Assembly: GCA_018647765.1 (NCBI GenBank)
Contig: JABGSN010000023.1
Span: 1-64,000, forward strand
Direction: 5' to 3'
DNA: 64,000 bases
Origin: Oceanospirillaceae bacterium
GTDB lineage: Bacteria; Pseudomonadota; Gammaproteobacteria; Pseudomonadales; Balneatricaceae
Of this stretch, positions 9,287-30,433 are shown piece by piece (position 1 is the stretch's first letter; the number at the start of each line of letters is the position of its first letter). The notes under the pieces are model-generated. The model was not told the DNA's origin, did no database searches, and saw nothing but the letters and a program-made list of their open reading frames with translations. Position numbers and translations under genes: made by a program.

Positions 9287-9477
9287 GTCGGCTTCCTCAT
9301 ATTATTGTCAGCAATTATTACGCCTTGTCTTCAGAAAGACTGGCCTAAAGTTACTGTAACTAGCTGTTACAAAGTGAAAAATCTATCATAGGTTTCTGTA
9401 TGAAAAGTGCGAGAAGACTATGATAAACTTCTTACCATCGTATAAGTTTACAACCTTAATTATTGCGCTGCGATAAA

Positions 9478-9504
9478 TTGACCTAGCACTCAGTACTAGG
9501 TCAA
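9478..9504 (-). promoter_or_regulatory. Intercistronic stem-loop between the TRAP binding-protein and permease genes
   Basis: A perfect 9-bp inverted repeat (TTGACCTAG/CTAGGTCAA) lies 20 bp after the binding-protein stop. It has only a weak T-rich tail (ATTTATC) on the minus strand. Such hairpins after periplasmic-binding-protein genes often raise binding-protein over permease expression by 3' stabilisation or partial termination. Confidence 0.6.
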
Positions 9505-9524
9505 TATCAAGTCAATGCAAACTA

Positions 9525-10628: not shown

Positions 10629-10752
10629 AATTGCCCTCCATTATTATTGTAATGCCTTCAGTCGGCTGCTGCTAATTTGTATGGAAGGCGTCACACAAAG
10701 CCCCATAATTGGGAGCAACAGTAAAATTATTTAAATAAAACTCATTACTAAG

Positions 10753-11340
10753 CTAAAAATAGGTAACTAGATCCAACCATCCGTCGTACAACATCTTTGT
10801 TGTTAAATACACTAAAAACACCAAGCCCACATAAGCAATGGCTGGGAATTTCAACATCACACGCATGATTAAGGAAGCAAAAAAGGCCATCAATACAATC
10901 GCTAATACCAAACCAATCACTAACAACTGGGTGTTATCTCGAGCAATGGCCGCTACGGCCAACACATTATCTAAGGACATGGAGATGTCTGCTATAGCAA
11001 TGGTCACCAGGGCGCTTCCCATGGTGACCTTACCTTTAGCCGGGCTAGTATCATCCGCTGGGGGTGCTGCAAAGTCTTTGATGTCACCATAGAAACGCCA
11101 GCACACCCAAGCTAACAAGACACCACCTAGCAACAAAATCCCTGGCACCCCAATAATAGTGCTGGCCACTACGGCAAACAAAATACGGAATAAGGCGGCC
11201 AATGCCATGCCAGCAAGAATTACCTTACGTCGTTGATGAGCAGCCAAACCTGCAGCTGCCATACCTATCACTAAGGCGTTGTCGCCAGACAAAATTAGAT
11301 CAGCAAATACAATCTGACCAATATCTAACCAATTAAACAT
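10753..11340 (-). CDS. TerC/YjbE-family integral membrane protein
   Basis: The protein has 195 residues and about six to seven predicted membrane helices. It carries the duplicated TerC signature: LSGDNALVIGMAA in the first half and ISMSLDNVLAVAAIA in the second, each with the conserved Asp-Asn pair. Characterised TerC-superfamily members export metal ions, mainly manganese; YjbE relatives in other phyla are less clear. The start codon overlaps the end of the upstream GMC dehydrogenase gene by 8 bp, so the two are translationally coupled. No TauE-type sulfite exporter is present in the island. A role here in exporting sulfite or a sulfonate is therefore worth considering but unproven. Confidence 0.88.
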   Translation of the reverse strand: MFNWLDIGQIVFADLILSGDNALVIGMAAAGLAAHQRRKVILAGMALAALFRILFAVVASTIIGVPGILLLGGVLLAWVCWRFYGDIKDFAAPPADDTSPAKGKVTMGSALVTIAIADISMSLDNVLAVAAIARDNTQLLVIGLVLAIVLMAFFASLIMRVMLKFPAIAYVGLVFLVYLTTKMLYDGWLDLVTYF

Positions 11341-12928: not shown

Positions 12929-12955
12929 GTACAAGCCTTGTTTTATTATAAAAAA

Positions 12956-12988
12956 GCAAATATTGAGACTTTTTTACTCATAATTTGC
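12956..12988. promoter_or_regulatory. Candidate IclR operator between iseJ and iseR
   Basis: An imperfect 12-bp inverted repeat (GCAAATATTGAG / CTCATAATTTGC, 10 of 12 positions matching) has a 9-bp A/T-rich spacer. It sits in the 177-bp divergent region, 28 bp upstream of the dehydrogenase start. It is the best palindrome in this region. Confidence 0.45.
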
Positions 12989-13105
12989 TAACATTATGCA
13001 TAAAACCACATTGCAAGAAAGTTTTCAAGATTTTTTTATACAAACACAGTATTCTTGACCACCATTATTTTCATTGACTCAGGCTACGAAGGAACTCTCA
13101 AAGTC

Positions 13106-13867
13106 ATGACCGAAACCACTCGTATCGCCACCAATATGCGCCTTTTTTATATTTTAGATGTGCTTGGCGAAAACCAACGACCCATGACGCCATCCGAAAT
13201 TAATGCTGAATTAAACTGGCCCAAACAAACGGTTCACCGCTTATGCAAGTCTATGGTCGAGGAAGGCTTTCTAGTTTACGACGCGGCGGGAAAAAAACTC
13301 CTGCCTAGTACCAACCTACGTAGCATTGCTAGCGGAATAGTTGCCAGTGACTGGTGTAGCACAGCTATTCACCAAGTATTGGAAAGCCTCAGTACCAAAG
13401 TACAAGAAACTGTGAACTTTGTGGTACCTGAACAACCGGGTATGATTTATAAAGACCGTGTGCAAACCAACTGGGCCTTTCAAGTACATTTGCCCGTAGG
13501 CTCCCACGTACCCTTTTATTGCACAGCTAGCGGCAAAACCTATTTAGCAAGTCTGCCTGCCAAAGCTCGCGCTCTACTAGTAGAATCCCTTGATCTAAAA
13601 CCGCTAACCAAAAATACTATTAGCCAAAAATCAGCTTTATTAGAAGAACTAAAAAAAGTCAAGAAACAAGGCTATGCTATTGATAAAGAAGAATTTTTTG
13701 AAGGAATGGTGGCTATTTCTGTACCCGTTCTGGATCCCAAAGGCAGATACCATGGAGCCCTTGCTTTTCATGGACCCACAATGCGCTTGGACGTCACAAC
13801 TATTGTCCAACACTACGCCTGTTTACGCGACTCAGCCGACCAGCTAAGCCATATTCTATTTAACTAG
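13106..13867 (+). CDS. iseR: IclR-family transcriptional regulator, candidate isethionate regulator
   Basis: The protein has 253 residues from the ATG of MTETTRIATNMRL; the ORF track begins 17 codons earlier at a TTG. An N-terminal winged HTH (LDVLGENQRPMTPSEINAEL then PKQTVHRLCKSMVEEGFL, residues 14-60) is followed by the IclR effector domain (YCTASGKTYLASLP, GYAIDKEEFFEGMVAISVPV). It is divergent from the GMC dehydrogenase gene with a palindrome between them. Its 3' end overlaps the opposite-strand FMN dehydrogenase gene by 12 bp. In described isethionate loci the regulator is also IclR-type. It probably controls the iseJ-terC and TRAP genes, by inference. Confidence 0.88.
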   Translation: MTETTRIATNMRLFYILDVLGENQRPMTPSEINAELNWPKQTVHRLCKSMVEEGFLVYDAAGKKLLPSTNLRSIASGIVASDWCSTAIHQVLESLSTKVQETVNFVVPEQPGMIYKDRVQTNWAFQVHLPVGSHVPFYCTASGKTYLASLPAKARALLVESLDLKPLTKNTISQKSALLEELKKVKKQGYAIDKEEFFEGMVAISVPVLDPKGRYHGALAFHGPTMRLDVTTIVQHYACLRDSADQLSHILFN

Positions 13868-15016
13868 GTGCCCAACCAAACTGGTAGGGTTAGCACAGTG
13901 CAATTGTGACATCACCTGCCCCAACTCTAGGCGTAATAGCTCAATAGCATGATCAGCACCAGCCTGACCATGAGCCGCAACACCATACAAAAACATGCGC
14001 CCAGCAAATACTGCCTTGGCACCTAAAGCCATATAACGAGCCACATCCACGCCAGATTCCACACCACTGTCTACCATCACTTCACATTGGTTGCCTACGG
14101 CCGCGACAATTTCCGGCAATACTTGTACTGGAGATTGGGCCGCATCTAACTGGCGACCTCCATGATTGGAGACGATAATAGCATCAGCCCCTAATGCCAC
14201 TGCACGCTGGGCATCTGTAACACTTAGTACACCTTTAACAATCAGCTTTCCTGACCACTGCGCACGTATGCGTTGCAAGCTTGCTGCGTCCACGACATCG
14301 CGTAATTTCGTGCGGATAAATTCAGCAGCATCGTCCATGGACATGGTTTGTTGGTCCATATAGGGCGTTAAATTGGCAAACTGCGGCAACCCTTCGCGCA
14401 AGGTCGCTATGCTCCATAGTGGCCGCATAGTCGACTGTATTACACTAGAAAGCGTAATTTTTGGCGGTACGCTCAGGCCACTCTTGATAGCCTTTAAGCG
14501 CCGGCTCGGGGTCGGCACATCTAGCGTCACCACCAAATTTTCACAACCGCAAGCCTTAAGCCTAGCCAACAAATCGTCTTGAATCCCCAGGTCACTGGGA
14601 GAATAGAGCTGGAACCAAAAATTTTGTTGGGCATGCTTAGCCGCCTCTTCAAGTGCTAAGGTCGACACAGTACTTAACACAAAGGGAATATTTGCCGTTC
14701 TAGCAGCTTTGGCATGCATGACCGACGCTTGTGGCCACACCAAACCCGTTAACCCCAAAGGCGCTATACCATAAGGGGCACTATATTCACGCCCCAGTAT
14801 ATGCGTTGTTAAGTTTGGTGCCTGATAGGCCTCTAGATAATGAGGTTCTAAGCGAAGACTATCCAACATTTTGCGATTATGCTGGACAGCCACACCAGTA
14901 TTACAGCCTTCTTCGATATAATCAAAAGCAAATTTAGGCACTCTCTTTTTAGCCCGACATTTTAAATCGGCCATCGATACGGACTGTGAGAGTGAATTCA
15001 TCATACTGTTGCTCAT
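13856..15016 (-). CDS. slcD: FMN-dependent alpha-hydroxy-acid dehydrogenase, candidate sulfolactate dehydrogenase
   Basis: The protein has 386 residues and the full FMN-dependent lactate/glycolate dehydrogenase TIM-barrel pattern: FDYIEEG near residue 30, IAPLGLTGL, LSTVST, FQLY, then VKGVLSVTDAQRAVALGADAIIVSNHGGRQLD, containing the catalytic His and substrate-binding Arg. Relatives oxidise L-lactate, mandelate or glycolate. It lies in an operon between DHPS dehydrogenases and sulfopyruvate decarboxylase, and the step missing from that chain is 3-sulfolactate to sulfopyruvate. I therefore assign a SlcD-like role. No membrane anchor is obvious, so coupling to the electron-transport chain would be peripheral. 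It is the last gene of the hps operon, 21 bp after comDE. Confidence 0.75.
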   Translation of the reverse strand: MSNSMMNSLSQSVSMADLKCRAKKRVPKFAFDYIEEGCNTGVAVQHNRKMLDSLRLEPHYLEAYQAPNLTTHILGREYSAPYGIAPLGLTGLVWPQASVMHAKAARTANIPFVLSTVSTLALEEAAKHAQQNFWFQLYSPSDLGIQDDLLARLKACGCENLVVTLDVPTPSRRLKAIKSGLSVPPKITLSSVIQSTMRPLWSIATLREGLPQFANLTPYMDQQTMSMDDAAEFIRTKLRDVVDAASLQRIRAQWSGKLIVKGVLSVTDAQRAVALGADAIIVSNHGGRQLDAAQSPVQVLPEIVAAVGNQCEVMVDSGVESGVDVARYMALGAKAVFAGRMFLYGVAAHGQAGADHAIELLRLELGQVMSQLHCANPTSLVGHLVK

Positions 15017-15037
15017 TGTTAAATTTAACGTCCTTAC

Positions 15038-16156
15038 CTAGGTGACGGCATTCATAAAACGCTGCTTAATAGCGACAGCTTTCAAGGGAATTTCAGCACC
15101 CACCTTATCATTGCCAGCTTCAATAAAGTAATGCATAAAACGCACTTTGCCTTGCAAACCTTTATGCAGCTCATCTACTTGATCGGTCATAGCCGTTGAC
15201 TCAATAGCTGCTGATTGAGCAAAAGCCGTCAAGTTATAGCCTTTTGAACTTAATGTAGGCTGGTTACCCGTGGAGCCCCAGCTACCATTATCTAAACAAA
15301 CCAACGTAAAGTTACTGGGGTTAAATGAGGCAATATCATACATTTGGTTAGGGTTAAAAAACATGGATCCATCACCGTCAATAACATACACATGGCGCTC
15401 TGGCTGCGCCATAGCCAAACCTAAACCCACAGCCACGGCAGAGCCTAAAGCACCTAACATATAAAAGTTGGTCTCCCGGTCTTTGGTGTTATAGAGTTCT
15501 TTAGATGGGAAGCCAATTTGCGACAAGACAATATCATGATCCTCCACTACATCCATAATTTGACCAATTGCGCCAAGGCGAGTGACACTAGGCTGGCCAC
15601 TATAGGCAGGCGCTTCAGCTTGCACGGCATTAATACGTGGCGCCCCAAAATTATGATAATCAGCACTGTTCTGTTCCCACAATTCAGGAGACATAAGGAA
15701 CACTTTGACTTTGTTATCCGCAAAGCAACTAGCTACTTCAGCATTGATATTATCAAGGTCTTCCATATTGGATAAGATTTGGTATTCCACATCAATGGCA
15801 TTTAACAAGTCTTCTACCTTACTACCAAATATAATCTGCGCTTCAATCGGCTCTTGATAATAACCACGCCAAGACACAAAAATTGGCAAACCTACCTCAT
15901 ACAGCTTTTGCATGGTGTAAAGTTCGGTGATCAAGTTACCCAAACCTGTATTTTGAATCATCATAGCCGAACGTTTATGGCCCAAGCTACGCCCAAAACA
16001 TAAACCTAAACCACCAGATTCTTTAGTTATATCCAATACCGTCATTTCAGCTGGCTTGTGGCTCATCAGCGCATTCATTTTATTACACGGCAGATAGGTA
16101 ACAGCATCCACATCATTGGTTTGTAAGGCAGACCATATACGCTGGCTATTATTCAT
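15038..16156 (-). CDS. comDE: Sulfopyruvate decarboxylase, fused alpha and beta domains
   Basis: The enzyme is a ThDP decarboxylase that converts 3-sulfopyruvate to sulfoacetaldehyde and CO2. It has 372 residues. Residues 1-165 are ComD-like (TYLPCNKMNALM; activating Glu in TKESGGLGLCFG). Residues 185-372 are ComE-like, with the ThDP motif GDGSMFFNPNQMYD and the partner Asn in CLDNGSWGSTGNQPT. In methanogens these are separate chains; a single chain is typical of bacterial sulfolactate and DHPS degraders. The gene lies between the zinc dehydrogenase and the FMN dehydrogenase with about 20-bp gaps. It routes C3 sulfonates to Xsc instead of direct cleavage by SuyAB. Confidence 0.88.
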   Translation of the reverse strand: MNNSQRIWSALQTNDVDAVTYLPCNKMNALMSHKPAEMTVLDITKESGGLGLCFGRSLGHKRSAMMIQNTGLGNLITELYTMQKLYEVGLPIFVSWRGYYQEPIEAQIIFGSKVEDLLNAIDVEYQILSNMEDLDNINAEVASCFADNKVKVFLMSPELWEQNSADYHNFGAPRINAVQAEAPAYSGQPSVTRLGAIGQIMDVVEDHDIVLSQIGFPSKELYNTKDRETNFYMLGALGSAVAVGLGLAMAQPERHVYVIDGDGSMFFNPNQMYDIASFNPSNFTLVCLDNGSWGSTGNQPTLSSKGYNLTAFAQSAAIESTAMTDQVDELHKGLQGKVRFMHYFIEAGNDKVGAEIPLKAVAIKQRFMNAVT

Positions 16157-16176
16157 AAGCTATCTCTCAATATTTA

Positions 16177-17181
16177 TTAAATTAAATGATCCGGTTGTAG
16201 CACAATTTTTGCTGCCGCAACTCGACCATGATGTAAATCGGAAAAGGCCTTAGCTCCTTCGCTTAAAGGCCGCTGTTCAACCCACTGCAATGAGCCCAAT
16301 TGGCCATGGGCTAACATTGTTAGGGCGGCACTCATATCCGCAGGGGTATAGCAGTAATTGCCTAGCACGCTCACCTCCTGCAAAGTGATTTTGCGCATAT
16401 CCAAACCATCGTCGTTATTTTGTAAACCAACGTGAGAAATAATGCCACCAGGCGCTACCTGCTCACTAGCCATGGCACGAGTTACACCAGCGCCAACACA
16501 GTCCAACACCACGTCATACTGACCAGCATGGGGTGCTATTTGACTCATAGGATCAAAACTTTGCGCCACCTGCTCTCGATCTACCGTAGCCCGACGTAAG
16601 TCATTGGTTTCGGCCAAATCAATGCTACGACAACCCTTCGCTGCCAAGACTAAAGCAGTTAACAAGCCAATTGCCCCGCCACCAATAACGAGGCAGCGTT
16701 GTTCAGATATGGGTCTATAGCTCACCCGCTCCACCAAACTCACAGCATGAAGGGCGGTGGCGGTAGGTTCCGTCAGGGATGCCGTAACCGCATCGACAGC
16801 CGCCGGGACTGATAGCAGGCTGGTTTGCTTCATCACTAGATAATCAGCATAGGCGCCAGCCAAATACATTCCGATAAGCTCTCGCTTGGTACATAAATTA
16901 CTGCGACCAGCAAGGCAGTGCTGGCAATAGCCGCAACTCATGAGTGGATTAACCACCACGCGTTGACCATCTAGCTCCCCTCCCGTTACCGTACCGCAAA
17001 CCTCGTGGCCTAAAATTAGCGGCGGTACTCGACGCTCATCATGGCCATGATAGGCATGCATGTCAGAACCACATATTGCCGTGGCTTCCACTTGCAACAG
17101 CACCTGCCCAGCACCTGCAACGGGTGTTGGCTCATCGCGATAAACCACCTCTTGAGTGGCTGTGTAAACTAAGGCTTTCAT
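16177..17181 (-). CDS. hpsP: Zinc-dependent MDR dehydrogenase of the DHPS operon
   Basis: The protein has 334 residues, a medium-chain alcohol dehydrogenase. The catalytic zinc ligands are in AICGSDMHAYHGH and LGHEVCG; the structural zinc site is the four-Cys CGYCQHCLAGRSNLC; the nucleotide fold is LVIGGGAIGLLTALVLAAKG. In the known DHPS pathway two DHPS-2-dehydrogenases (HpsO, HpsP) interconvert the enantiomers through a 2-oxo intermediate so that HpsN can use both. This gene and the SDR beside it fit those roles. Which is O and which is P is a guess. An alternative is a sorbitol/threonine-type dehydrogenase. It sits 18 bp after the SDR gene. Confidence 0.78.
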   Translation of the reverse strand: MKALVYTATQEVVYRDEPTPVAGAGQVLLQVEATAICGSDMHAYHGHDERRVPPLILGHEVCGTVTGGELDGQRVVVNPLMSCGYCQHCLAGRSNLCTKRELIGMYLAGAYADYLVMKQTSLLSVPAAVDAVTASLTEPTATALHAVSLVERVSYRPISEQRCLVIGGGAIGLLTALVLAAKGCRSIDLAETNDLRRATVDREQVAQSFDPMSQIAPHAGQYDVVLDCVGAGVTRAMASEQVAPGGIISHVGLQNNDDGLDMRKITLQEVSVLGNYCYTPADMSAALTMLAHGQLGSLQWVEQRPLSEGAKAFSDLHHGRVAAAKIVLQPDHLI

Positions 17182-17199
17182 AAATACCTCTCCCGCACT

Positions 17200-17967
17200 T
17201 TATAAGGCCGTAAAGCCGCCATCAACAGCAATCACTTGTCCGGTAATATAAGCAGATGCTTCACTAGCTAGAAATACACAAATGCCATCCAAATCAGCCA
17301 ACTTGCCGTTACGGCCAATGGCAGTTTTTTGCGCCAACTGATGTGCTGTATCACCATCTTCAAACACGGGCTGGGTTAATTCCGTTGGAAAAAATCCTGG
17401 CGCGATAGCATTGCAATTCACCCCTTGAGCCGACCAAGCTTGCGCCATGGCACGAGTTAACTGGCTTATAGCACCTTTAGAAGCACCGTAGGCAATACCA
17501 TTAGCAAAGGCTCTGCTCGACTGCAAAGAAGCGACATTAATGATGCGCCCCCAGCCTCTTTTTTGCATACCAGGAACTAACAATTGTGCCAACATAAAGG
17601 GGGCTTTCACATTCAAGGTTTGGGTTATATCCCAGCTTTGGCTAGTCACATCTTCTGCCGCTTGGCGCAAATTCACACCTGCAGTGTTGCAAATAATATC
17701 CACCTGGCCATAACAGGTTTCGGCAAAATCAGCCACTAGTTGCCAACTGGACTGCTCATTTAAGTCAGCAACAAAAAATGTGGCTTCAATACCACTTTGT
17801 TGCAGTGACTCCACTAATGCTTGCAGTGCTTCCATACGCCTTGCTACTAACACAAGCCTTGCACCCGCGGCACCTAGAGCATGAGCTTGTTGAGCACCAA
17901 TACCCGATGAAGCGCCAGTGATTAGCGCCACCTTACCGGCAAGGCTAAACATCGATTCTTGTAACAT
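17200..17967 (-). CDS. hpsO: Short-chain dehydrogenase of the DHPS operon
   Basis: The protein has 255 residues with a complete classical SDR pattern: the cofactor motif TGASSGIGAQQAHAL near residue 18, NTAGVN, catalytic Ser in VASLQSSRAFANG, catalytic YGASK, and C-terminal YITGQVIAVDGGF. The ATG used lies one base after the hpsN stop; a second ATG five codons in, just before SLAGKVALITG, is also possible. Next to hpsN and the zinc dehydrogenase it probably supplies one of the two DHPS-2-dehydrogenase activities. The substrate is inferred from context only. Confidence 0.8.
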   Translation of the reverse strand: MLQESMFSLAGKVALITGASSGIGAQQAHALGAAGARLVLVARRMEALQALVESLQQSGIEATFFVADLNEQSSWQLVADFAETCYGQVDIICNTAGVNLRQAAEDVTSQSWDITQTLNVKAPFMLAQLLVPGMQKRGWGRIINVASLQSSRAFANGIAYGASKGAISQLTRAMAQAWSAQGVNCNAIAPGFFPTELTQPVFEDGDTAHQLAQKTAIGRNGKLADLDGICVFLASEASAYITGQVIAVDGGFTAL

Positions 17968-17968
17968 C

Positions 17969-19273
17969 TTAGGAGCGACCTAAATCAAACTGCTCGTTAG
18001 GGAAGTATTTATGCAAACGATCATCACCGGCACGAGCATGACCTTCCATACCTTCTAAACGTGAGATACGTGCCGCAGCCGCACCTACTTCTCGGTTGGC
18101 TTCTTGAGTCATACGCTGAGTGGTCACGGTTTTAATAAACTTACCCACGGATAAACCGCCCGTATAACGCGCCGCACCTTTGGTCGGCAAGATGTGGTTG
18201 GTGCCAGAGCACTTATCTCCATATGTTACCGTCGTTTCTTCGCCAACAAACAAAGACCCATAGTTAGTCAGGTTCTCTACCCACCAATCTAGATCTTCAC
18301 AATGGATTTCTAAATGCTCGGCGGCGTATTCATCGCTCACTTGCACCGCTTCTTCACGGGTGTCACAGACAACCACCTCAGCATAATCTGCCCAAGCAGA
18401 ACGTGCTGCCGAGCGTGATGGTTCAGGCATATCTTCAATAAGGCCTGGTACTAATTCAATGGCTTTACGTGCTACCTCTGCATCCAGGCTGATCAACCAC
18501 ATGGGGGAATCTGGACCATGTTCGCCTTGACCAACTAAGTCACCAGCAACGATACGCGGATCGGCACTTGAGTCTGCAATTACTGCAATTTCCGTAGGTC
18601 CGGCAAACATATCGATACCCACACGTCCGTATAACATACGTTTTGCTTCGGCCACAAAGCGATTGCCAGGGCCAGCAAGAATGTCGGCTTTTTTTCCGGT
18701 AAACAAACCAAATGCCATGGCAGCAATAGCCTGCACACCACCTAAGGCTAAAATTGTATCAGCGCCACTATAGTCCGCCGTGTACAAGATTGCATCATTC
18801 ACCCCAGCACCGGGCTTAGGCGGTGAGCAAGCAATAACGTGATTAACACCGGCGGCTTTCGCCGTAGCCACAGACATAATGGCCGAGGCAACATGAGAAT
18901 AACGACCACCAGGCACATAACAACCTGCAGTTTGCATAGCAATTTGGCGCTGGCCAGCCCACAAACCAGGTGACAACTCCACTTCAAAATCAATTAACGC
19001 ATTACGCTGGTGCTGGGCAAATTTACTGACTCGCTCGTGAGCAAAGCGAATATCGTCTTTTACTCGTTGCGTTAAACGTGAACTTGCCGCCTCGATTTCG
19101 TCACGTGTCACCACAATGTTGCCGGTAAACTGATCTAACTGCTGGGCATATTCTGCACAACGTTGTTCACCACCTTGTTCAATGTTTGCCAACATCTCCG
19201 ATACAATCAAGCGTGTGTTGTCTTCGCCTGTGGCAGGCGATTTGTCTGCACGCTTCATATAAGTAATAGTCAT
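17969..19273 (-). CDS. hpsN: Sulfopropanediol 3-dehydrogenase (histidinol-dehydrogenase family)
   Basis: HpsN oxidises DHPS twice at C3 with NAD+ to give 3-sulfolactate, a four-electron reaction like that of histidinol dehydrogenase. The protein has 434 residues. It keeps the HisD scaffold (CYVPGGRYSHVASA, AGPGNRFVAEAK, FAGPTEIAVIAD). The region around the zinc ligands reads GQGEHGPDSP and GDKCSGTNHILPT, the pattern of the HpsN clade rather than true HisD. No his genes are nearby. It is the first gene of a five-gene minus-strand operon and is divergent from a LacI regulator. Two matching palindromes lie upstream. Confidence 0.88.
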   Translation of the reverse strand: MTITYMKRADKSPATGEDNTRLIVSEMLANIEQGGEQRCAEYAQQLDQFTGNIVVTRDEIEAASSRLTQRVKDDIRFAHERVSKFAQHQRNALIDFEVELSPGLWAGQRQIAMQTAGCYVPGGRYSHVASAIMSVATAKAAGVNHVIACSPPKPGAGVNDAILYTADYSGADTILALGGVQAIAAMAFGLFTGKKADILAGPGNRFVAEAKRMLYGRVGIDMFAGPTEIAVIADSSADPRIVAGDLVGQGEHGPDSPMWLISLDAEVARKAIELVPGLIEDMPEPSRSAARSAWADYAEVVVCDTREEAVQVSDEYAAEHLEIHCEDLDWWVENLTNYGSLFVGEETTVTYGDKCSGTNHILPTKGAARYTGGLSVGKFIKTVTTQRMTQEANREVGAAAARISRLEGMEGHARAGDDRLHKYFPNEQFDLGRS

Positions 19274-20613: not shown

Positions 20614-22296
20614 TTAGAACAAGCCAACGATGTCGCCGTTTTCGTTGATATCGATGACTTCAGCAGCAGGCTTCTTAGGAAGACCAGGCATGGTCATAAC
20701 GTCACCAGCAAGCACTACGATGAAACCAGCACCGGCAGACAAACGCACTTCACGAAGTGGAATATCAAAACCAGTTGGACGACCCTTAAGCGCAGGATCA
20801 GTAGAGAAAGAGTACTGAGTCTTAGCCATACAGATTGGCAAGTTGCCGTAGCCCGCTTCTTCTAAAGCAGTAAAACGGTCACGTAGCTTCTGGTCGCCTT
20901 GAATGTCGTCAGCGCCGTAGATCTTCTGAGCTACAGTCTTAACTTTGTCCCAAAGAGGCATGTCATCTTCGTACAAGTAGTGGAAGTCGTTTTCGTGATT
21001 TTCTACCAATTCAACAACCGCTTCAGCTAGCTCAGTAGCGCCTTTGCCGCCGTCTGCCCAGTGGTTAGCTTCAATGACTTGAACGCCTAGGTAATCACAC
21101 TTAGCTTGTACTTGCTTCACTTCTTCGTCAGTGTCGGTAACAAACTTGTTAACGGCAACAACTACTGGAAGACCAAACTGGTGGATGTTTTCGATGTGTT
21201 TTTTAAGGTTTTCAACACCTTTAGCAACCGCTTCTAGATTTTCGTTGTTAACGTCCTTAAGAGGAACGCCACCGTGTAGCTTAAGTGCACGGATAGTAGC
21301 AACGATTACAACAGCGTTTGGCGTGATGCCAGCCTTACGACATTTGATGTCTAGGAACTTCTCAGCACCCAAGTCTGCACCAAAACCAGCTTCAGTTACT
21401 GTGTACTCACTTAGCTTCATAGACAAACGAGTAGCAACGACTGAGTTACAACCGTGAGCGATGTTAGCGAATGGGCCACCGTGTACGAATGCTGGCGTGT
21501 GCTCAAGCGTCTGTACAAGGTTAGGGCTGAATGCGTCTTTCAACAATACAGTCATTGCGCCGTGAACCTTAAGGTCACGTGCAGTAACAGGCTTCTGGTC
21601 GTATGTGTAACCAACTACTGCGTCACCCAACTTCTCTTTCAATTCAGCAAGAGTATTAGCAAGGCAGAAGATCGCCATAACTTCAGAAGCTACAGTGATG
21701 TCGAATCCAGTTTCACGAGGAACACCGTGAGCTGGGCCGCCACGACCGATGGTTACGTTACGTAGGGCACGATCGTTCATGTCCATAACGCGCTTCCAAG
21801 CGATGCGACGTGGGTCTAGGTTCAATTCGTTACCTTGCTGAAGGTGGTTGTCGATTGCAGCAGATAACAAGTTGTGTGCAAGGCCAATGGCATGGAAGTC
21901 GCCAGTGAAGTGCAAGTTAATGTCTTCCATGGGTACTACCTGAGCGTAACCGCCGCCGGCTGCACCACCCTTAACACCAAAACATGGGCCAAGAGAAGGT
22001 TCACGCAAACATACAGATGCTTGCTTACCAATTTGATTCAAGGCATCGCCCAAACCGATGGTCGTCGTCGTCTTACCTTCGCCAGCAGGTGTTGGGTTAA
22101 TGGCTGTCACTAGGATCAGTTTGCCATCTTTACGATCGGATACGCTTTTGATGAACTCAGGGCTGATTTTAGCCTTAATTTTGCCGTACATTTCTAAATC
22201 ATCAACATTGATGTTTAGCTTTGTAGCAACTTCAGCGATAGGACGTTTCTCGGCAGCGCGAGCAATATCAATGTCGGACAAGTAAGTCTTAGCCAT
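20614..22296 (-). CDS. fhs: Formate--tetrahydrofolate ligase
   Basis: The enzyme makes 10-formyl-THF from formate, THF and ATP in the cytoplasm. The protein has 560 residues, the normal length. The P-loop-like [20 protein letters not shown] is near residue 67 and [18 protein letters not shown] follows. The C-terminus ([24 protein letters not shown]) is standard. It is a single-gene unit ending at a bidirectional terminator. Its position between a sulfonate island and a quaternary-amine block suggests it handles one-carbon units from demethylation, which is inference. Confidence 0.97.
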
Positions 22297-22767
22297 GATT
22301 TTACCTTGGTATTAAAATTGAGCTGGTTTAAGCATCAATTTGTGGTTATTTGACCCGTCTGCGAAGGTGCAAAACGAGTCACTTGAATATTGGTGGGAAA
22401 TAATACTCTCCCGTAAATTAACTACATATCCAAAAGCGACCCATGACTATCCACCAGACCGAAACTTACGGGCAACACAGGAAACTCAAGTCAACCCCCT
22501 TTCCAAAAGGAAATTTAGCACCACAATGAGCACCAATTTGTAATTTTTTTTAACCCTGTTCACACACCATTGACAGGCGCGACCGTGTGCACAATCGACA
22601 CTCTAACCTGCTGTAAAATATTCGTTATTACCTAAAAAAACATCGCTTTTCGTCAAGTCAGTTCCATTATTCTAGGGCATAGTAGCGTTTTTGATTGTTG
22701 GCCTGCAGCACCCTCTGGCCGCTGCTTTATACCCAAACCGCCTGATAGAGAATAGAGAATAGAGATC
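22297..22767. other. Divergent intergenic region between fhs and the acyl-CoA dehydrogenase gene
   Basis: This 471-bp stretch contains no convincing gene on either strand. The only visible oddity is a short direct repeat, GAGAATA repeated twice, immediately before the acyl-CoA dehydrogenase start, where an SD sequence would be expected. I found no riboswitch-like structure. Confidence 0.55.
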
Positions 22768-23928
22768 ATGGATTTTAGCCTTACCGACGAACAACAAATG
22801 ATCATCGCCACCTTAAAGGCGTTTGTAGAGCAAGAGTTGTACCCCCACGAAGCTGAAGTGGAAAAAACCAACACCATCCGCCCAGAAATCTATGCAGACA
22901 TTAAACAAAAAGCCATTGAGCTGGGCCTCTACGCGGCCAACATGCCAGAACAACACGGTGGCGCTGGTCTAGATAGCCTCACTTTGTGTTTAATGGAGCG
23001 CGAACTAGGCCGCGCCAACTTTGGTTTACAGTACATTGTGGGTCGACCCAGCAACATTCTACTGGCGTGTAAGGGTAAACAAATTGAAAACTACTTGCAT
23101 GCCAGTATTCGCGGCGACAAGGTAGATTGTTTAGCCTTGACCGAACCCAATGCAGGTTCCGACGTACGCTCTATGCAGTGCCGCGCCGAGCGCGATGGTG
23201 ATGACTTCATAATCAACGGTACCAAGCACTTTATTAGCCATGCAGACGTCGCGGATTTTGTCATTCTATTCGCCGCCAGCGGCGTGGAACAAACAGTTCG
23301 TGGCCCAAAGAAAAAAATCACCAGCTTTCTGGTCGACATGGGCACCCCCGGATTCACCGTAGAACCGGGCTACAACAGTGTATCCCACCGCGGATACCAC
23401 AACAGCATCCTTAACTTTGACAACTGTAGAGTACACAAATCCCAAGTTTTAGGCGTAGAAGACCATGGTTTTGATGTGGCTAACGAATGGCTCGGCGCAA
23501 CCCGCTTATCTGTTGCCGCCATGTGCTTAGGGCGCGCCGAACGGGCCTTAGAAATAGCCACCGAGTGGGCCTCCACCCGCAAACAATTTGGCCAAAGCGT
23601 GGGGAAGTTTCAAGGGGTGTCGTTTAAGCTCGCCGACATGGCCACCGAATTAAAAGCTGCGGAACTACTCACCATGTACGCCGCTTGGAAAGACTCCAGA
23701 GGTGAAATGACCGACGCCGACGCTGCAATGGCTAAACTAAAAGCCACAGAAATGCTGGCCATGGTGTCGGATGAGGCCATACAAATTTTAGGCGGCATGG
23801 GCTTAATGGACGAATTGCCATTAGAGCGCATCTGGCGTGACCACCGCGTAGAACGTATTTGGGATGGCACCAGCGAAATCCAACGCCATATTATTTCTCG
23901 ATCTATGTTACGGCCGCTAGAAGGGTAA
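22768..23928 (+). CDS. Acyl-CoA dehydrogenase
   Basis: The protein has 386 residues, the normal length for an FAD-dependent acyl-CoA dehydrogenase. It would introduce an alpha-beta double bond into an acyl-CoA and pass electrons to ETF. Domains: helical N-terminus (residues 1-115), beta domain with LTEPNAGSDV, C-terminal helical domain with RKQFGQSVGKFQ. At the position of the usual catalytic Glu (YEGTS in MCAD) this protein has WDGTSEIQR, an Asp. It is followed after 7 bp by an acyl-CoA synthetase gene, and a betainyl-CoA-thioesterase-like gene lies nearby. A short or polar betaine-type acyl-CoA (for example gamma-butyrobetainyl-CoA) is a better guess than a fatty acid. Confidence 0.92.
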   Translation: MDFSLTDEQQMIIATLKAFVEQELYPHEAEVEKTNTIRPEIYADIKQKAIELGLYAANMPEQHGGAGLDSLTLCLMERELGRANFGLQYIVGRPSNILLACKGKQIENYLHASIRGDKVDCLALTEPNAGSDVRSMQCRAERDGDDFIINGTKHFISHADVADFVILFAASGVEQTVRGPKKKITSFLVDMGTPGFTVEPGYNSVSHRGYHNSILNFDNCRVHKSQVLGVEDHGFDVANEWLGATRLSVAAMCLGRAERALEIATEWASTRKQFGQSVGKFQGVSFKLADMATELKAAELLTMYAAWKDSRGEMTDADAAMAKLKATEMLAMVSDEAIQILGGMGLMDELPLERIWRDHRVERIWDGTSEIQRHIISRSMLRPLEG

Positions 23929-23935
23929 GTTGGCA

Positions 23936-25987
23936 ATGATCAACAAACAACGATTACGACGCCTCCTAGCGCCTCAATCCATCGCCGTATTTGGCAGCCG
24001 TGGCGCCGACTTCGCCATTCGCGAAAGTCAGGCCATGGGGTTTACTGGCCCCATATGGTCGGTACACCCTAAACGTAGCGCGCTGGAAGGCATTAGCTGC
24101 CTAAAAACCGCCCAAGATCTACCTCAAGCACCCGATGCAGCTTACGTTGCCGTTAATGCCGAAAGCGCCATTGAAACCGTGGCTGCGCTCAACAAAATGG
24201 GCGCCGGTGGGGCGTTACTTTACGCCTCTGGGTTCAGTGAATTAGGACCCATAGGTATCGATAGACAGACACGCTTACTGGCTGCGGCTGGCGATATGCC
24301 TATCATCGGACCCAACTGTTATGGCGTGATCAACGCCTTGGACAAAGCCGTGTTATGGCCCGACCAACATGGCTGCCAACCCGTAGACAAAGGTGTGGGC
24401 ATCATCACCCAAAGTGGCAACATTGGCCTCAACATGACCATGCAACAGGTGGGCTTACCTATTGCCTATATGTTTACCATGGGTAATCAAGCCCAAGTGG
24501 ATATCGCAACGGTGATGGACGCCATGCTGGATGACCCTCGTGTCACCGCTATCGGACTGCACATTGAGGGCATCAACAACTTGGCGGCGTTTGATCAAGC
24601 GGCCCGTCGTGCCCTAAAATTAAACATCCCCATTGTGGCTATTAAAACCGGGCGTACCGCCGCTGCAGCCAAAATCGCCCTCTCTCACACCAGTTCTCTC
24701 ACGGGGGCAGACAGCTTATTTGATGCCTTATTCAAACGTTTGGGTATTGCTCGAGTGGACACCGTGCCGGAGTTTTTGGAATGCCTTAAACTGCTGTCTG
24801 TCATCGGCCATTTAAGCCATAAATACATTGCCTCCATGAGCTGTTCTGGCGGCGAAGCCGGCATGATGGCAGACTTAATAGACGGCCGCGAGATTGAATT
24901 TGGACCCCTAACACAAGCCCAAAAAGACACCACCCTAGCCACTTTCAAAAACGGCGAGCAAGTCGACAACCCGCTGGACTATCAAACTTACATTTGGGGC
25001 CATCGCGAGCAGTTGGCAGCCACCTATGGTGCCCATATGGCTGCCAACTTTAGCGCCACCGTGTTAATCCTAGACTGGCCCAACACGGCAACCGCTAATC
25101 CTTCAGAATGGGATGCCGCCATGCTGGCCTTAGCCGACGCCGCCCAAGCCGGTGGCCACAAGGCCATCGTGCTGGCATCCATGGCCGAGTGCATGCCTGC
25201 ACACGCCATTAACACCTGTATTAAACACGGCATGGCCCCCATGATTGGTATGGACGAGTGTTTAACTGCCCTCAACCATGCATACCGCATTGGCCAGGCC
25301 TTTAAGGCCAATGTGCCACCTGCATTACACATTGGTATAGTACAAGCTGATGGCAGCGCACCCTTGTCGGAAGCGGACAGCAAGCAACGTTTAGCCCTAC
25401 ACGGCTTGCCCATTCCTAATGGCCACACAACCACTAACCTAGACCAAATCATACAGGTGGTAGCCAACTTGGGTTACCCCATTACCTTAAAAGCCGTGGG
25501 GACCGAGTTGGCCCATAAAACGGAATTAGGCGCGGTTAAGCTCAACTTAAAAAACTCAACACAGGTTGCTCAAGCAGCCACCGACTTATTTGCCCTTAGC
25601 GATACCGTGTTAGTGGAACAGATGGTGCAAGGTGTTGTTGCAGAACTCATCATAGGCATTAATTCGGACCCATTGTTCGGCCAATATTTAGTCTTAGGTG
25701 CCGGTGGCATTTTGGTAGAATTACTACAAGATGCACAAAGCTTACTGCTGCCGCTCGATAGAACACAAATCGAACAGGCTTTGTCCAGCCTCAAATGCGC
25801 CCCCATACTCGCGGGTTATCGTGGTAACAGTAGAGCGAATATTGAGGCTATTATTGATGCGGTTATGGCGGTACTCGATTACAGTCAACACGCCCCAGTT
25901 TACGAACTCGACATCAATCCGTTACTCGCCTTAGAGCAAGGCGCCGTGGCGGTTGATGCGTTGGTTCAACTCGGCCAACGAGGCTAA
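23936..25987 (+). CDS. ADP-forming acyl-CoA synthetase, fused alpha and beta domains
   Basis: The protein has 683 residues from the ATG of MINKQRLRRL; the track's start two codons earlier is a TTG. Order: CoA-binding Rossmann domain (IAVFGSRGADFAIRES, residues 14-110), succinyl-CoA-ligase-like domains (TQSGNIGLNMTMQQ; phosphohistidine candidate in LSHTSSLTGADSLFD near residue 252), then an ATP-grasp domain (LKAVGTELAHKTELGAV; LVLGAGGILVELLQD). Members convert acid + CoA + ATP to acyl-CoA + ADP + Pi. It would activate the substrate for the adjacent dehydrogenase. The superfamily also contains the DMSP-CoA ligase/lyase DddX, an alternative. It overlaps the opposite-strand regulator gene by 4 bp at the 3' end. 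Confidence 0.88.
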   Translation: MINKQRLRRLLAPQSIAVFGSRGADFAIRESQAMGFTGPIWSVHPKRSALEGISCLKTAQDLPQAPDAAYVAVNAESAIETVAALNKMGAGGALLYASGFSELGPIGIDRQTRLLAAAGDMPIIGPNCYGVINALDKAVLWPDQHGCQPVDKGVGIITQSGNIGLNMTMQQVGLPIAYMFTMGNQAQVDIATVMDAMLDDPRVTAIGLHIEGINNLAAFDQAARRALKLNIPIVAIKTGRTAAAAKIALSHTSSLTGADSLFDALFKRLGIARVDTVPEFLECLKLLSVIGHLSHKYIASMSCSGGEAGMMADLIDGREIEFGPLTQAQKDTTLATFKNGEQVDNPLDYQTYIWGHREQLAATYGAHMAANFSATVLILDWPNTATANPSEWDAAMLALADAAQAGGHKAIVLASMAECMPAHAINTCIKHGMAPMIGMDECLTALNHAYRIGQAFKANVPPALHIGIVQADGSAPLSEADSKQRLALHGLPIPNGHTTTNLDQIIQVVANLGYPITLKAVGTELAHKTELGAVKLNLKNSTQVAQAATDLFALSDTVLVEQMVQGVVAELIIGINSDPLFGQYLVLGAGGILVELLQDAQSLLLPLDRTQIEQALSSLKCAPILAGYRGNSRANIEAIIDAVMAVLDYSQHAPVYELDINPLLALEQGAVAVDALVQLGQRG

Positions 25988-26961
25988 GCACGGCGTAGTT
26001 GTTGATGTCGATCTTGACTCGGGGCGATGTTAAAAAACTGCCGGTAGGCACGGGAAAAATGAGCTGCAGACCCAAACCCACTAGCTATGGCAATATCGAC
26101 CACTTGCCGGTCTGTTTGTTGTAATAACGCTCGCGCTCGCTGTAACCGTTTGGCCCGATAATAACGCCCCGGTGGCTGTTGTAAATGACGACTAAACAGG
26201 CGCTCTAGTTCACGCTCTGACACACTCACAAGACTGGCGAGTTGCGGTATGCTTAGCGGCTCCTCTAAGTGGTTTTCCATAGCGGCAATAACGGTGAGCA
26301 ACTTGCGATTATTGGTACCTAAGCGCAATGCACTGGTCATGCGTTGCGGTGCCTTGCCTTCTCGCATATGACTATAAATTAGTTCATCCGACACGGTTAA
26401 TGACAATTCATGCCCATGCTGACACTGAATCAGATAGAGCATCATATCTAGGCCAGCTAAGCCACCAGAACAAGTAAAACGGCGGCCATCAATTTCATAC
26501 AACTCGTCGACCACGTCCACACACCTAAATACTTCCTTAAAGGCCATCAGGTTTTCCCAATGGATGGTCGCCCGAGTGCCATTTAACAACCCACTTTTGG
26601 CTAATAAATAACTCCCTGTGTCTTGGCTTCCCAGCCACACGCCTCTGCGACTGTGTTGCTGTAACCAATGCTGCAAATTTTTGTTGTAGCCTTTTTCTGG
26701 CCTAAAACCGGCGCACAATACCAACATATCGAGCCTGAACTCGCGGCCTAAGGCGCAATCAGCAACCAGGCTCATGCCATTACTCGCCGCCACGGGGCCG
26801 CCAGCAGCACTAATCACTTGCCATTGGTATAAACGTTGACCCGATTGGCTATTGGCCTGACGCAAGGGATCGACTAAGGCGGAAAACCCGATCATAGAGA
26901 ACTCGGGCACGAGATAGAAGGCAATGTTAATGGTCTTGCTAGGATTTTGAGGCGCAAACAT
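25984..26961 (-). CDS. GlxA-type AraC-family transcriptional regulator
   Basis: The protein has 325 residues. An N-terminal class-I-amidotransferase/DJ-1-like domain (IAFYLVPEFSMIGFSALVDPLRQAN; LGSQDTGSYLLAKSGLLNG) is joined to a C-terminal AraC double HTH (LASLVSVSERELERLFSRHL and VVDIAIASGFGSAAHFSRAYRQFF). This architecture is shared with GbdR and CdhR, the glycine-betaine and carnitine regulators of Pseudomonas. That supports quaternary-amine catabolism for the flanking genes. It is divergent from the thioesterase gene (120-bp gap) and convergent with the acyl-CoA synthetase gene. Confidence 0.9.
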   Translation of the reverse strand: MFAPQNPSKTINIAFYLVPEFSMIGFSALVDPLRQANSQSGQRLYQWQVISAAGGPVAASNGMSLVADCALGREFRLDMLVLCAGFRPEKGYNKNLQHWLQQHSRRGVWLGSQDTGSYLLAKSGLLNGTRATIHWENLMAFKEVFRCVDVVDELYEIDGRRFTCSGGLAGLDMMLYLIQCQHGHELSLTVSDELIYSHMREGKAPQRMTSALRLGTNNRKLLTVIAAMENHLEEPLSIPQLASLVSVSERELERLFSRHLQQPPGRYYRAKRLQRARALLQQTDRQVVDIAIASGFGSAAHFSRAYRQFFNIAPSQDRHQQLRRA

Positions 26962-27081
26962 GGTTACTTAACCCGCTGTCGTTTATGTGCAACAATAGTG
27001 CGATATTAATCATTCTTTGCACCACTTGCAACGACTAATCTATGGGCCTTAAGTAGCCACAATCATAGACACGGAAACCGT

Positions 27082-27555
27082 ATGAATCACGCTTTAAATA
27101 CCCTTAGCACACCGATTATAAAAGATTGGATTGACTATAATGGCCACCTAAACGACGCCTATTATTTAGTTATCTTTACACAGGCGACCGACACCCTACA
27201 GAACCACCTTGGTTTAACGCTGGAACACATCCAAGCCACGGGCGAAACGCTTTTTACGGTAGCTACCCATCTCGCTTACATACAAGAAATTGGTTTGGGG
27301 GAAGTGGTTACGGTAACCACGCAACTGTTAGAAACAGACAACAAACGCATGCGTATTTTTCACCGCATGTTTAACGCCCAACAAGAGTTATTGGCCACCG
27401 TAGAGATGCTGTTTTTGAGTTATAACTTAAAAGCCAAAAAGGTCAGTAATTTTGGCGACATGATGCAGGGAAGTTTGGCGCAGCTTGAACAACAACACGC
27501 TGACATGCCTTGGCCAGACAGTGCTGGCAAAGGCATCACGCTGAAGAGATCTTAA
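27082..27555 (+). CDS. cdhB: Hotdog thioesterase, betainyl-CoA thioesterase-like
   Basis: The protein has 157 residues and a 4HBT hotdog fold. The active-site region DWIDYNGHLNDAYYLVIFTQATD has the conserved Asp of the 4HBT helix. The pattern IIKDWIDYNGHLNDAYY closely resembles carnitine-pathway betainyl-CoA thioesterases (CdhB). Product would be glycine betaine plus CoA. The carnitine dehydrogenase (CdhA) and the 3-keto cleavage enzyme (CdhC) are not in the window, so the symbol is tentative. It is divergent from a CdhR/GbdR-like regulator and ends 3 bp from the convergent methyltransferase gene. Confidence 0.75.
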   Translation: MNHALNTLSTPIIKDWIDYNGHLNDAYYLVIFTQATDTLQNHLGLTLEHIQATGETLFTVATHLAYIQEIGLGEVVTVTTQLLETDNKRMRIFHRMFNAQQELLATVEMLFLSYNLKAKKVSNFGDMMQGSLAQLEQQHADMPWPDSAGKGITLKRS

Positions 27556-27558
27556 CCT

Positions 27559-28605
27559 CTAACGGCGGCGTGAACGACGGCTGGTAGCGGCGCCGTCTGC
27601 GGCGCCACCCGCCACACTCAAGTCGCCGGCAAACTGTGCCTTACCGCCTTTAGACACTTCACCCAGAGCAGATTCGATTTGCTCCACTGTGGGTGCATCA
27701 CCTTTGGTATGGCCATCCAGGGCTTTACGCATCGCCGCCACGTGTTCTGGCGACGTGCCACAACAGCCACCAATAATATTAGCGCCGGCATCCATGGCCA
27801 TAGTGGCATATTGAGCCATAATTTCTGGTGTACCATTATAATGAATCGCACCATTGAGGTATTCCGGAATACCACAGTTGGCCTTCGCCACCAATATGGC
27901 TTTGTCACCACCAGGGGCATTACGCATATTACGAATCGCCATCACCAGCTCCGACGCGCCCACACCGCAGTTAGAACCACACGCATAAGCTGTGTGGTCT
28001 TCGTGGGCACAAGATTGCACCATGTCCGAGGGTGTCACACCCATCATTGAACGACCATTGGTATCAAAACTGTAGGTACAAATTACCGGTAAACCAGTAG
28101 TATTGGCGCCCTCTATTGCCGCTTCCGATTCTTGTGTTGAGGACATGGTCTCCACCCACAATACGTCAGCGCCACCTGCCTTTAAGGCCGCCGCTTGTTC
28201 GGTAAAGGCGGCTACGGCATCGGCATGACTTAAACTGCCCATAGGTTCTGGAATCTCGCCCGTCGGCCCAATAGAGCCAGCCACAATAACCAGCCGCCCT
28301 GCTTTGGCTGCCACTTGCTTACCAATTTTAACCCCCGCCACATTGAGCTCGTGAACCCGATCTTGGGCGTTGTGCAACTTCATACGGTAATGCGTGCCAC
28401 CAAAGGTGTTGGTTAAAATAATGTCTGAACCGGCATCAACAAAACTCTGGTAGTTAGCGGCAATACGATCCGGATGGTCCACATTCCACAGCTCAGGCGC
28501 ATCACCTGTTTCTAGGCCCATGGCAAATAAGTTAGTGCCGGTGGCACCGTCTGCTAATAATACGCCGCGTTTTTCTAAAAGATCCTGTAAAACATTGTTG
28601 CTCAT
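27559..28605 (-). CDS. Homocysteine/betaine S-methyltransferase family protein
   Basis: The protein has 348 residues. It matches the Pfam homocysteine S-methyltransferase fold: LADGATGTNLFAMG at the N-terminus, LTNTFGG, IVAGSIGPTGE, and zinc ligands in CGSNCGVGA and GGCCGTSPEH. Members move a methyl group from betaine, S-methylmethionine or methyl-THF to homocysteine. Beside a CdhB-like thioesterase and an MttB-like gene, glycine betaine is the likely donor (Bmt-type). The last 30 residues are a low-complexity Gly/Ala/Ser tail ending in RRSRRR, not part of the catalytic fold. It is divergent from the MttB-like gene with 280 bp between. Confidence 0.9.
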   Translation of the reverse strand: MSNNVLQDLLEKRGVLLADGATGTNLFAMGLETGDAPELWNVDHPDRIAANYQSFVDAGSDIILTNTFGGTHYRMKLHNAQDRVHELNVAGVKIGKQVAAKAGRLVIVAGSIGPTGEIPEPMGSLSHADAVAAFTEQAAALKAGGADVLWVETMSSTQESEAAIEGANTTGLPVICTYSFDTNGRSMMGVTPSDMVQSCAHEDHTAYACGSNCGVGASELVMAIRNMRNAPGGDKAILVAKANCGIPEYLNGAIHYNGTPEIMAQYATMAMDAGANIIGGCCGTSPEHVAAMRKALDGHTKGDAPTVEQIESALGEVSKGGKAQFAGDLSVAGGAADGAATSRRSRRR

Positions 28606-28885: not shown

Positions 28886-30433
28886 ATGAGTGAAGCCCGC
28901 GGACGCCGCAAAAGCGGTGGTGGTCGTAGTGCACGTCAAGCATCACGTGCCGCAGACACTGTAACAGCACCGGCCTTTATTACTCGCCAACTAAATCCAT
29001 TTGAAGTGTTGGATGAAGCTGGCCTAGAGCTAATAGAGCGCAATGCCGACATTATCTTAGCTGAAACTGGCATTGAATTTCGTGACGACCCAGAAGCGCT
29101 AGCAGTACTTAAGGCTGCGGGCGCCAGTGTCGATGGCGAGCGTGTACGTTTTCCTCACGGGATGTGTCGCCAGATCATCCAAGCCTCTGCACCTTCAACT
29201 TACACTCAACACGCACGCAACAGTGAGCGTAACTTAGACATCGGCGGCAAAAACACCATCTTTGCGCCAGGTTATGGCTGCCCATTTGTACGCGATTTAG
29301 ACAACGGCCGTCGATACGCCACTATCAATGATTTCCAAAACTTCGTTAAGCTGGCTTACATGTCGCCTTACATGCACCACTCTGGTGGTACTGTATGTGA
29401 ACCCGTAGACGTACCCGTAACCACTCGCCACCTAGACATGCTTTACAGCCACATTAAGTACAGCGACAAAGCCTTTATGGGGTCTGTGACTGCACCATCT
29501 CGAGCGCAAGATACCGTGAACATGGCAAAGATTGTATTTGGTGAAGAGTTTGTCAAAAACAATACCGTGACCACTAGCTTAATCAACGCTAACTCACCTA
29601 TGACCTTTGACGACACCATGCTGGGTGCGGCCAAAATTTACGCCGAAAACAAGCAAGCTTGTGTAGTTACACCATTTATTCTTGCTGGTGCTATGTCGCC
29701 AGTAACCGTTGCCGGAACATTGGCACAGGTGTTGGCGGAAGTGTTAGCCGGCATTACCTTTATTCAGCTGTACCGCCCTGGCACGCCGTGTATCTTCGGC
29801 ACCTTTGCTAGCTCCATCTCGATGCAGTCTGGCGCACCCACCTTCGGTACACCCGAGCCAGCGTTAGTACTTTACGGTGCTGCGCAATTGGCTCGTCGCT
29901 TAGGTGTGCCGTTCCGTAGTGGTGGTTCGTTACCGGGCTCCAAAATTGCCGACGCTCAGGCGGCTTACGAAAGTGCCAACACCCTCATGCCAACCATTAT
30001 GGCTGGAGTTAACTTTGCCCTTCACTCTGCCGGTTGGTTAGAAGGTGGCCTGTCTATGGGTTATGAAAAGTTCGTTATGGACTGTGACCAACTGGGCATG
30101 GCGCATACCTTCTGCAAGGGTGTAGATTTATCTGAAAATGGCCAAGCCATGGACGCTATCCGTGAAGTTGGCCCAGGCAACCATTTCTTAGGCTGCACAC
30201 ACACACAGGCTAACTTCAAAGACGCCTTTTATATGTCTAATCTTGCTGACAACAACAGCTTTGAGCAGTGGGAAGAAGACGGCAGCCAAGACATTCAAGT
30301 GCGGGCTAACAAGTTGTGGAAGAAGATGCTCAACGACTACCAAGCCCCAGCTTTGGACCAGAGCATTGATGACGGCTTGAACGACTTTATGGCCAAGCGT
30401 AGAGAAGAACTAGCTGGCACTGGCGACTTCTAA
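28886..30433 (+). CDS. Trimethylamine methyltransferase (MttB) family protein, non-pyrrolysine type
   Basis: The protein has 515 residues with an uninterrupted frame, so no amber pyrrolysine codon is used. Non-Pyl MttB homologues, such as MtgB for glycine betaine, demethylate quaternary amines onto a corrinoid protein. After an Arg/Gly-rich lead (residues 1-25: RGRRKSGGGRSARQ) the MttB domain shows FEVLDEAGLELIERNADIILAETGIEF, FAPGYGCPFVRD and SGGTVCEPVDVPV. The start has a good SD (GAGGAG). No corrinoid-protein gene is next to it; the partner would have to be elsewhere. It is divergent from the betaine/homocysteine methyltransferase gene and followed by a terminator. Confidence 0.9.
   Translation: MSEARGRRKSGGGRSARQASRAADTVTAPAFITRQLNPFEVLDEAGLELIERNADIILAETGIEFRDDPEALAVLKAAGASVDGERVRFPHGMCRQIIQASAPSTYTQHARNSERNLDIGGKNTIFAPGYGCPFVRDLDNGRRYATINDFQNFVKLAYMSPYMHHSGGTVCEPVDVPVTTRHLDMLYSHIKYSDKAFMGSVTAPSRAQDTVNMAKIVFGEEFVKNNTVTTSLINANSPMTFDDTMLGAAKIYAENKQACVVTPFILAGAMSPVTVAGTLAQVLAEVLAGITFIQLYRPGTPCIFGTFASSISMQSGAPTFGTPEPALVLYGAAQLARRLGVPFRSGGSLPGSKIADAQAAYESANTLMPTIMAGVNFALHSAGWLEGGLSMGYEKFVMDCDQLGMAHTFCKGVDLSENGQAMDAIREVGPGNHFLGCTHTQANFKDAFYMSNLADNNSFEQWEEDGSQDIQVRANKLWKKMLNDYQAPALDQSIDDGLNDFMAKRREELAGTGDF

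Follow-up and report, generated by a model that had tools for sequence, protein, structure and literature searches.

The window, a 64,000-nucleotide stretch of DNA from an Oceanospirillaceae bacterium, carries four genes at positions 22768-27555 that most probably take part in the conversion of gamma-butyrobetaine to L-carnitine and on to glycine betaine. From gene identity and gene context, we give a probability of about 85% to the reading that an acyl-coenzyme A (acyl-CoA) dehydrogenase and an ADP-forming ligase carry out the first steps of a CoA-dependent route from gamma-butyrobetaine to L-carnitine, with a regulator and a thioesterase in the branch from carnitine to glycine betaine. The module represents a known pathway in rearranged form, split over three contigs, and not a new pathway. 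What is new is that it occurs in marine gammaproteobacteria and that one step is apparently replaced, and we regard the result as solid and mostly ordinary. The window corresponds to contig C54 in an assembly of 2.49 Mb and 68 contigs with a completeness rating of 100% (G000; G, C and L numbers denote genomes, contigs and loci), whose nearest named relatives are Oceanospirillaceae metagenome genomes. The four open reading frames (ORFs), which an earlier inspection of the sequence (the original prediction) had proposed, are all present as placed, with Pfam and NCBIfam support:

22768-23928, plus strand: acyl-CoA dehydrogenase, putative gamma-butyrobetainyl-CoA dehydrogenase (Pfam Acyl-CoA_dh_N/M/1)
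23930-25987, plus strand: ADP-forming (NDP-forming) acyl-CoA synthetase, putative gamma-butyrobetaine:CoA ligase (CoA_binding_2, Succ_CoA_lig and ATP-grasp_5)
25984-26961, minus strand: GlxA/AraC-type regulator, GbdR/CdhR-like, divergent from the thioesterase gene (Pfam DJ-1_PfpI and HTH_18)
27082-27555, plus strand: hotdog thioesterase, CdhB-like (Pfam 4HBT_2)

The ligase ORF from 23930 begins with TTG, an ATG at 23936 being the likelier start, and its reading frame shares 4 bases with that of GlxA.

We favour this pathway because homologous clusters in Rhizobium and other bacteria hold the whole carnitine/betaine set together. In the proposed order, the ligase would convert gamma-butyrobetaine, CoA and ATP to gamma-butyrobetainyl-CoA (step 1), the dehydrogenase would turn this into crotonobetainyl-CoA (step 2), and CaiDs, a hydratase encoded on contig C61, would give L-carnitinyl-CoA (step 3). 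A thioesterase would release L-carnitine (step 4), CdhA and CdhC, both encoded on contig C3, would form dehydrocarnitine (step 5) and betainyl-CoA (step 6), and the window thioesterase, acting as CdhB, would yield glycine betaine (step 7), which MtgB, MtgE and their partners would then demethylate. The GlxA-type regulator may control the route.

Among the loci of the genome collection, the dehydrogenase gene lies immediately 5' of the ligase gene wherever upstream DNA is available (38 of 38), and a CaiD gene lies immediately 3' of the ligase in 32 of the 36 loci with downstream DNA, the four exceptions being congeners of the window organism. GlxA and CdhB adjoin the pair only within the window genus. 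The survey of four-gene co-occurrence that the original prediction had proposed therefore gives a divided answer: the dehydrogenase-ligase pair is a recurrent unit, but the full set of four is not. On the Rhizobium plasmid pR132505 the order is GlxA, then CdhC-CdhA/thioesterase fusion-dehydrogenase-ligase-carnitinyl-CoA dehydratase-ATP-binding cassette (ABC) transporter. Single clusters with CdhC, the CdhA-thioesterase fusion, the dehydrogenase-ligase pair and the dehydratase also occur in Aestuariispira (L041), Nisaea (L064), Roseibium (L068) and G037 (L109), the last a gammaproteobacterium of a different family from the window organism. Compared with the Rhizobium carnitine cluster, the window dehydrogenase shows 62% and the ligase 47% identity; the SUP05/Thioglobus homologues reach 80-86% and 53-58%, respectively, in an operon with the order TE1-dehydrogenase-ligase-CaiD, TE1 being a dedicated first thioesterase. 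Unlike the window, SUP05/Thioglobus keeps TE1 and the native CaiD, and its CdhC and CdhA fusion sit at another locus. For nine genomes whose operon locus is without CdhC (eight of the SUP05/gammaproteobacterial type and one Loktanella), we searched the whole genome, and it turned out that seven encode CdhC elsewhere, in six of them beside a complete CdhA-thioesterase fusion; in the seventh, Loktanella, CdhC lies beside a CdhA match that is cut off by the end of the examined locus.

Such clusters bear out the assignment to betaine metabolism and support gamma-butyrobetaine as a candidate substrate, both suggested in the original prediction. The module can no longer be called undescribed, since the whole set is clustered in rhizobia and others and matches the Sinorhizobium meliloti route. 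The same recurrent linkage, to CaiD, the CdhA-thioesterase fusion and CdhC in both Alpha- and Gammaproteobacteria, makes it very improbable that the pair serves ordinary short-chain fatty acids and merely happens to have betaine genes as neighbours, although the closest solved structures to the window dehydrogenase are indeed short-chain acyl-CoA dehydrogenases.

Targeted searches of the window genome located the partner genes outside the window:

contig C3, 38449-39426: CdhA (573 bits to carnitine 3-dehydrogenase PRK07531)
contig C3, 39468-40331: CdhC/BKACE, adjoining CdhA
contig C61, 9365-10147: CaiDs, crotonobetainyl-CoA-hydratase-type, unlinked to the operon

CdhA and CdhC share 61% and 72% identity, respectively, with the Rhizobium proteins. 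Their supposed absence is thus true for the window only, an effect of its edges. For CaiDs, the crotonobetainyl-CoA hydratase is the best NCBIfam model, under its cut-off, as is also the case for the Rhizobium protein; CaiDs shares 69% identity with the Rhizobium carnitinyl-CoA dehydratase and 47% with the native CaiD. Directly before CaiDs in the window genome lies a gene whose product matches the Pfam halogenase model HalD (L107 8478-9278, C61), and a similarly placed gene is found in G012.

Every enzyme class of the S. meliloti route (BcoAB ligase, acyl-CoA dehydrogenase, hydratase, CdhA-thioesterase fusion and CdhC) is therefore represented in the window genome by a ligase homologue, the operon dehydrogenase, a hydratase, CdhA and CdhC, and the Rhizobium version of the route has homologous dehydrogenase, ligase and hydratase. 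The window genome differs in its spread over three contigs, the free-standing CdhB, the adjacent MtgB and MtgE genes and the unlinked hydratase. The route from gamma-butyrobetaine through carnitine to glycine betaine was reportedly characterised in S. meliloti by Bazire et al. (2019; ref. 26 of PMC12482172). That work is said to assign the seven steps to five enzymes, so that a single thioesterase would have to serve both hydrolyses. According to PMC12482172, the S. meliloti 3-hydroxyacyl-CoA dehydrogenase SM2011_c01638 forms dehydrocarnitine and also hydrolyses betainyl-CoA to glycine betaine, and PMC8364193 describes BcoAB as a gamma-butyrobetaine:CoA ligase that forms gamma-butyrobetainyl-CoA from ATP, CoA and gamma-butyrobetaine.

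Other known systems are less similar. Pseudomonas carnitine catabolism (CdhR, CdhC, CdhA, CdhB) shares with the window genome CdhA, CdhC, a CdhB-type thioesterase and a GbdR/CdhR-like regulator, but in the window genome cdhCA is unlinked from cdhB and there are extra steps for gamma-butyrobetaine activation; Pseudomonas sp. AK1 uses a gamma-butyrobetaine hydroxylase instead (PMC2131755). The enterobacterial Cai system (CaiA-E) performs CoA-level chemistry on gamma-butyrobetaine, crotonobetaine and carnitine with a CaiD-type hydratase, but it is anaerobic, runs in the reductive direction and uses CaiB/CaiC without an ADP-forming ligase (partly family knowledge, partly PMC2131755).

Within the window genus, 12 genomes, the window genome included, combine the ligase with a detectable hydratase. 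Of these, seven have the operon CaiD without CaiDs (G001, G002, G006, G007, G008, G009, G013) and five have the unlinked CaiDs without the operon CaiD (G000, G005, G010, G011, G014), and in no genome examined do both occur together. TE1 shows the same division: it is present in G001, G006, G007, G008, G009 and G013, with the site off the contig in G002, and absent from the five CaiDs genomes. In most congeners, as in SUP05, the genes for thioesterase, dehydrogenase, ligase and hydratase directly follow one another. G003 is 67% complete and its locus ends at the contig end, with neither hydratase in view. A perfect 7:5 exclusion has a probability of 1/792 under independent draws, relatedness making the real evidence weaker. 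No remnant ORF of TE1 or CaiD exists in the window genome at 22297-22767, between the formate-tetrahydrofolate ligase and the dehydrogenase, nor between the ligase and GlxA. A five-protein tree of the region places the window genome beside G009, which has TE1 and CaiD; both fall in the CaiD clade (support 0.996), away from the four remaining CaiDs species, a position that suggests at least two separate losses. CaiDs is surrounded by hut genes and an ABC transporter in G000 and G012, and accompanied by an RNase-R-like gene (named by sequence only) in G005, G010, G011 and G014. G012, a close relative (95% complete, CdhC 99% identical), retains CaiDs and CdhA-CdhC, and neither a ligase, a TE1/CdhB match nor an orthologous MttB (best 59%) was found in it. 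The region can therefore be missing as a block, and block loss is possible.

The simplest reading is that the native CaiD has apparently been replaced by the unlinked, distantly related CaiDs, with the native thioesterase also lost. After this replacement, a single CdhB would carry out both hydrolyses, by analogy with the fused rhizobial clusters. The pathway in the window species may also have changed, in that the pair serves another betaine acid or ends at an unsaturated betainyl-CoA that enters some further step, and CaiDs is not its partner; we hold this to be distinctly unlikely.

The dehydrogenase has an aspartate at the catalytic-base position in place of the glutamate of the short-chain family. 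This aspartate, within the window motif RIWDGTSEIQR, is shared by 40 of the 42 aligned sequences, Rhizobium included, and only the G037 and G042 copies have glutamate. An unusual residue here might hint at a trimethylamine-releasing lyase like BbuA, an acyl-CoA dehydrogenase-like enzyme from a gamma-butyrobetaine cluster that acts on the same substrate class and converts gamma-butyrobetainyl-CoA to crotonyl-CoA and trimethylamine (PMC8364193). However, the clusters encode carnitinyl-CoA dehydratase and CdhA/CdhC, enzymes for intermediates that carry a trimethylammonium group, and a Bbu-type CoA transferase was not observed among their genes; we consider a lyase of this kind extremely unlikely, and dehydrogenation to crotonobetainyl-CoA remains the favoured step.

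The window ligase has the CoA-binding, succinyl-CoA-ligase-like and ATP-grasp domains of the ADP-forming acyl-CoA synthetase superfamily, and both family histidines, H253 and H529, are conserved at more than 97% in the alignment (n=49). Their roles we assume from family knowledge. These features agree with the predicted CoA activation by an ADP-forming ligase.

Several points weigh against the proposed pathway. Its genes are spread over three contigs (C54, C61 and C3) in the window genome. The TE1 of the relatives is absent from this genome, so step 4 requires CdhB or another enzyme. At the thresholds used, no gapped motif of 5+5 bases was common to the upstream regions of dehydrogenase/TE1, GlxA-CdhB and cdhC in the several species compared, and a common regulon is therefore unproven. 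The window ligase and S. meliloti BcoAB could not be confirmed as one ligase family. Besides, the nearest solved relative of the window ligase is DddX, the ADP-forming dimethylsulfoniopropionate (DMSP) lyase (7cm9; E 2.8e-59). Together with the loss of the hydratase and first thioesterase from the window operon, which could signal a changed substrate, this would suit a ligase and dehydrogenase that use another betaine acid (DMSP, trimethylaminopropionate or another omega-trimethylammonium acid), the carnitine-type thioesterase and regulator being mere neighbours. The 4-hydroxybutyrate-CoA ligase 8wzu scores almost equally (E 9.1e-59), however, so that the DddX match is one at superfamily level. 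The comparison with DddX, proposed earlier, shows a common superfamily; the gene context differs, and DMSP cleavage is not indicated. The nearest gene clusters point to carnitine, the lost hydratase is replaced by an unlinked one of carnitine type, and the clusters examined showed no partner gene of a DMSP pathway. We rate the DMSP/DddX reading low because of the superfamily-level match and the carnitine gene context; DMSP, which had been put forward as an equal candidate, and other betaines appear disfavoured as substrates, and the use of another betaine acid is unlikely.

As for the carnitine branch, the window thioesterase matches the thioesterase portion of carnitine 3-dehydrogenase PRK07531 (125 bits) and has 2hlj as its best solved relative, which upholds its CdhB-like designation. 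It shares 31% identity with the thioesterase domain fused to Rhizobium CdhA and, with TE1 absent, is the one CdhB-like thioesterase found. It would act on betainyl-CoA, and probably on L-carnitinyl-CoA too. The expected GbdR/CdhR architecture of the regulator agrees with its domains and with GbdR as best NCBIfam model, but the score of 335 bits is under the cut-off of 480; judged by its sequence, the protein is a relative of GbdR and not assignable as GbdR itself.

On both sides of the module lie genes of one-carbon (C1) and glycine betaine metabolism:

20614-22296, minus strand: formate-tetrahydrofolate ligase (NF010030, above cut-off)
27559-28605, minus strand: homocysteine S-methyltransferase, MtgE-type, betaine-homocysteine methyltransferase-like (NF005718, 480 bits against a cut-off of 338; S-methyl_trans)
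28886-30433, plus strand: MttB-superfamily methyltransferase, MtgB-like, glycine betaine demethylation (MTTB, 763 bits)

The closest solved relatives of the last protein are 4yyc, which we take to be an S. meliloti structure, 2qne and the glycine betaine methyltransferase 9yce (E 2.8e-128 for 9yce). Its frame has no internal stop and hence no in-frame amber (pyrrolysine) codon, which is consistent with an MtgB-like enzyme. In marine bacteria, MtgE and MtgB, the counterparts of this gene pair, serve a glycine betaine demethylation/methionine system (PMC12478193). By sequence likeness, the two neighbours share betaine metabolism with the four-gene module, and the formate-tetrahydrofolate ligase probably handles C1 units released by demethylation. 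The adjacency of the MtgE-type gene and of the formate-tetrahydrofolate ligase to the module is kept in the genus.

The window genome has seven MttB-superfamily genes in 2.5 Mb (C54:28919, C16:1744, C49:45905, C68:30531, C56:3108, C28:61796 and C7:9057; L173-L179), the window copy being 27-58% identical to the others; this number suggests demethylation of several quaternary amines. At L111 (G042:C21, 113-8100), in a different family of the order, dehydrogenase-ligase-CaiD with a rhizobial-type CaiD lies near an MttB gene 66% identical to that of the window. A second cluster in the window genome (G000:C39, L116 8275-11941) contains a CdhA-like dehydrogenase, a GbcA/CntA-like Rieske oxygenase and short-chain dehydrogenases; its counterparts in G014 and G005 (L163 and L164) include a BKACE gene, and it probably serves another trimethylammonium compound. 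Window positions 4783-19273 resemble a sulfonate (dihydroxypropanesulfonate/sulfolactate) cluster, with genes for an Xsc-like protein, a tripartite ATP-independent periplasmic (TRAP) transporter, a sulfopyruvate-decarboxylase-like protein and an HpsN-like member of the histidinol-dehydrogenase family, the last checked with a family model and the others named by sequence reading.

In conclusion, CoA-dependent gamma-butyrobetaine catabolism, known in rhizobia, is now placed in marine Oceanospirillaceae and SUP05/Thioglobus. With CaiDs apparently in place of CaiD, the genus offers a clear example of a pathway step taken over by an enzyme that is unlinked and only distantly related, and a pathway seen through a single locus can seem broken though the genome is complete. 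In marine hosts, the route would turn another nitrogen osmolyte into carnitine and glycine betaine and would supply demethylation by MtgB and MtgE (PMC12478193).

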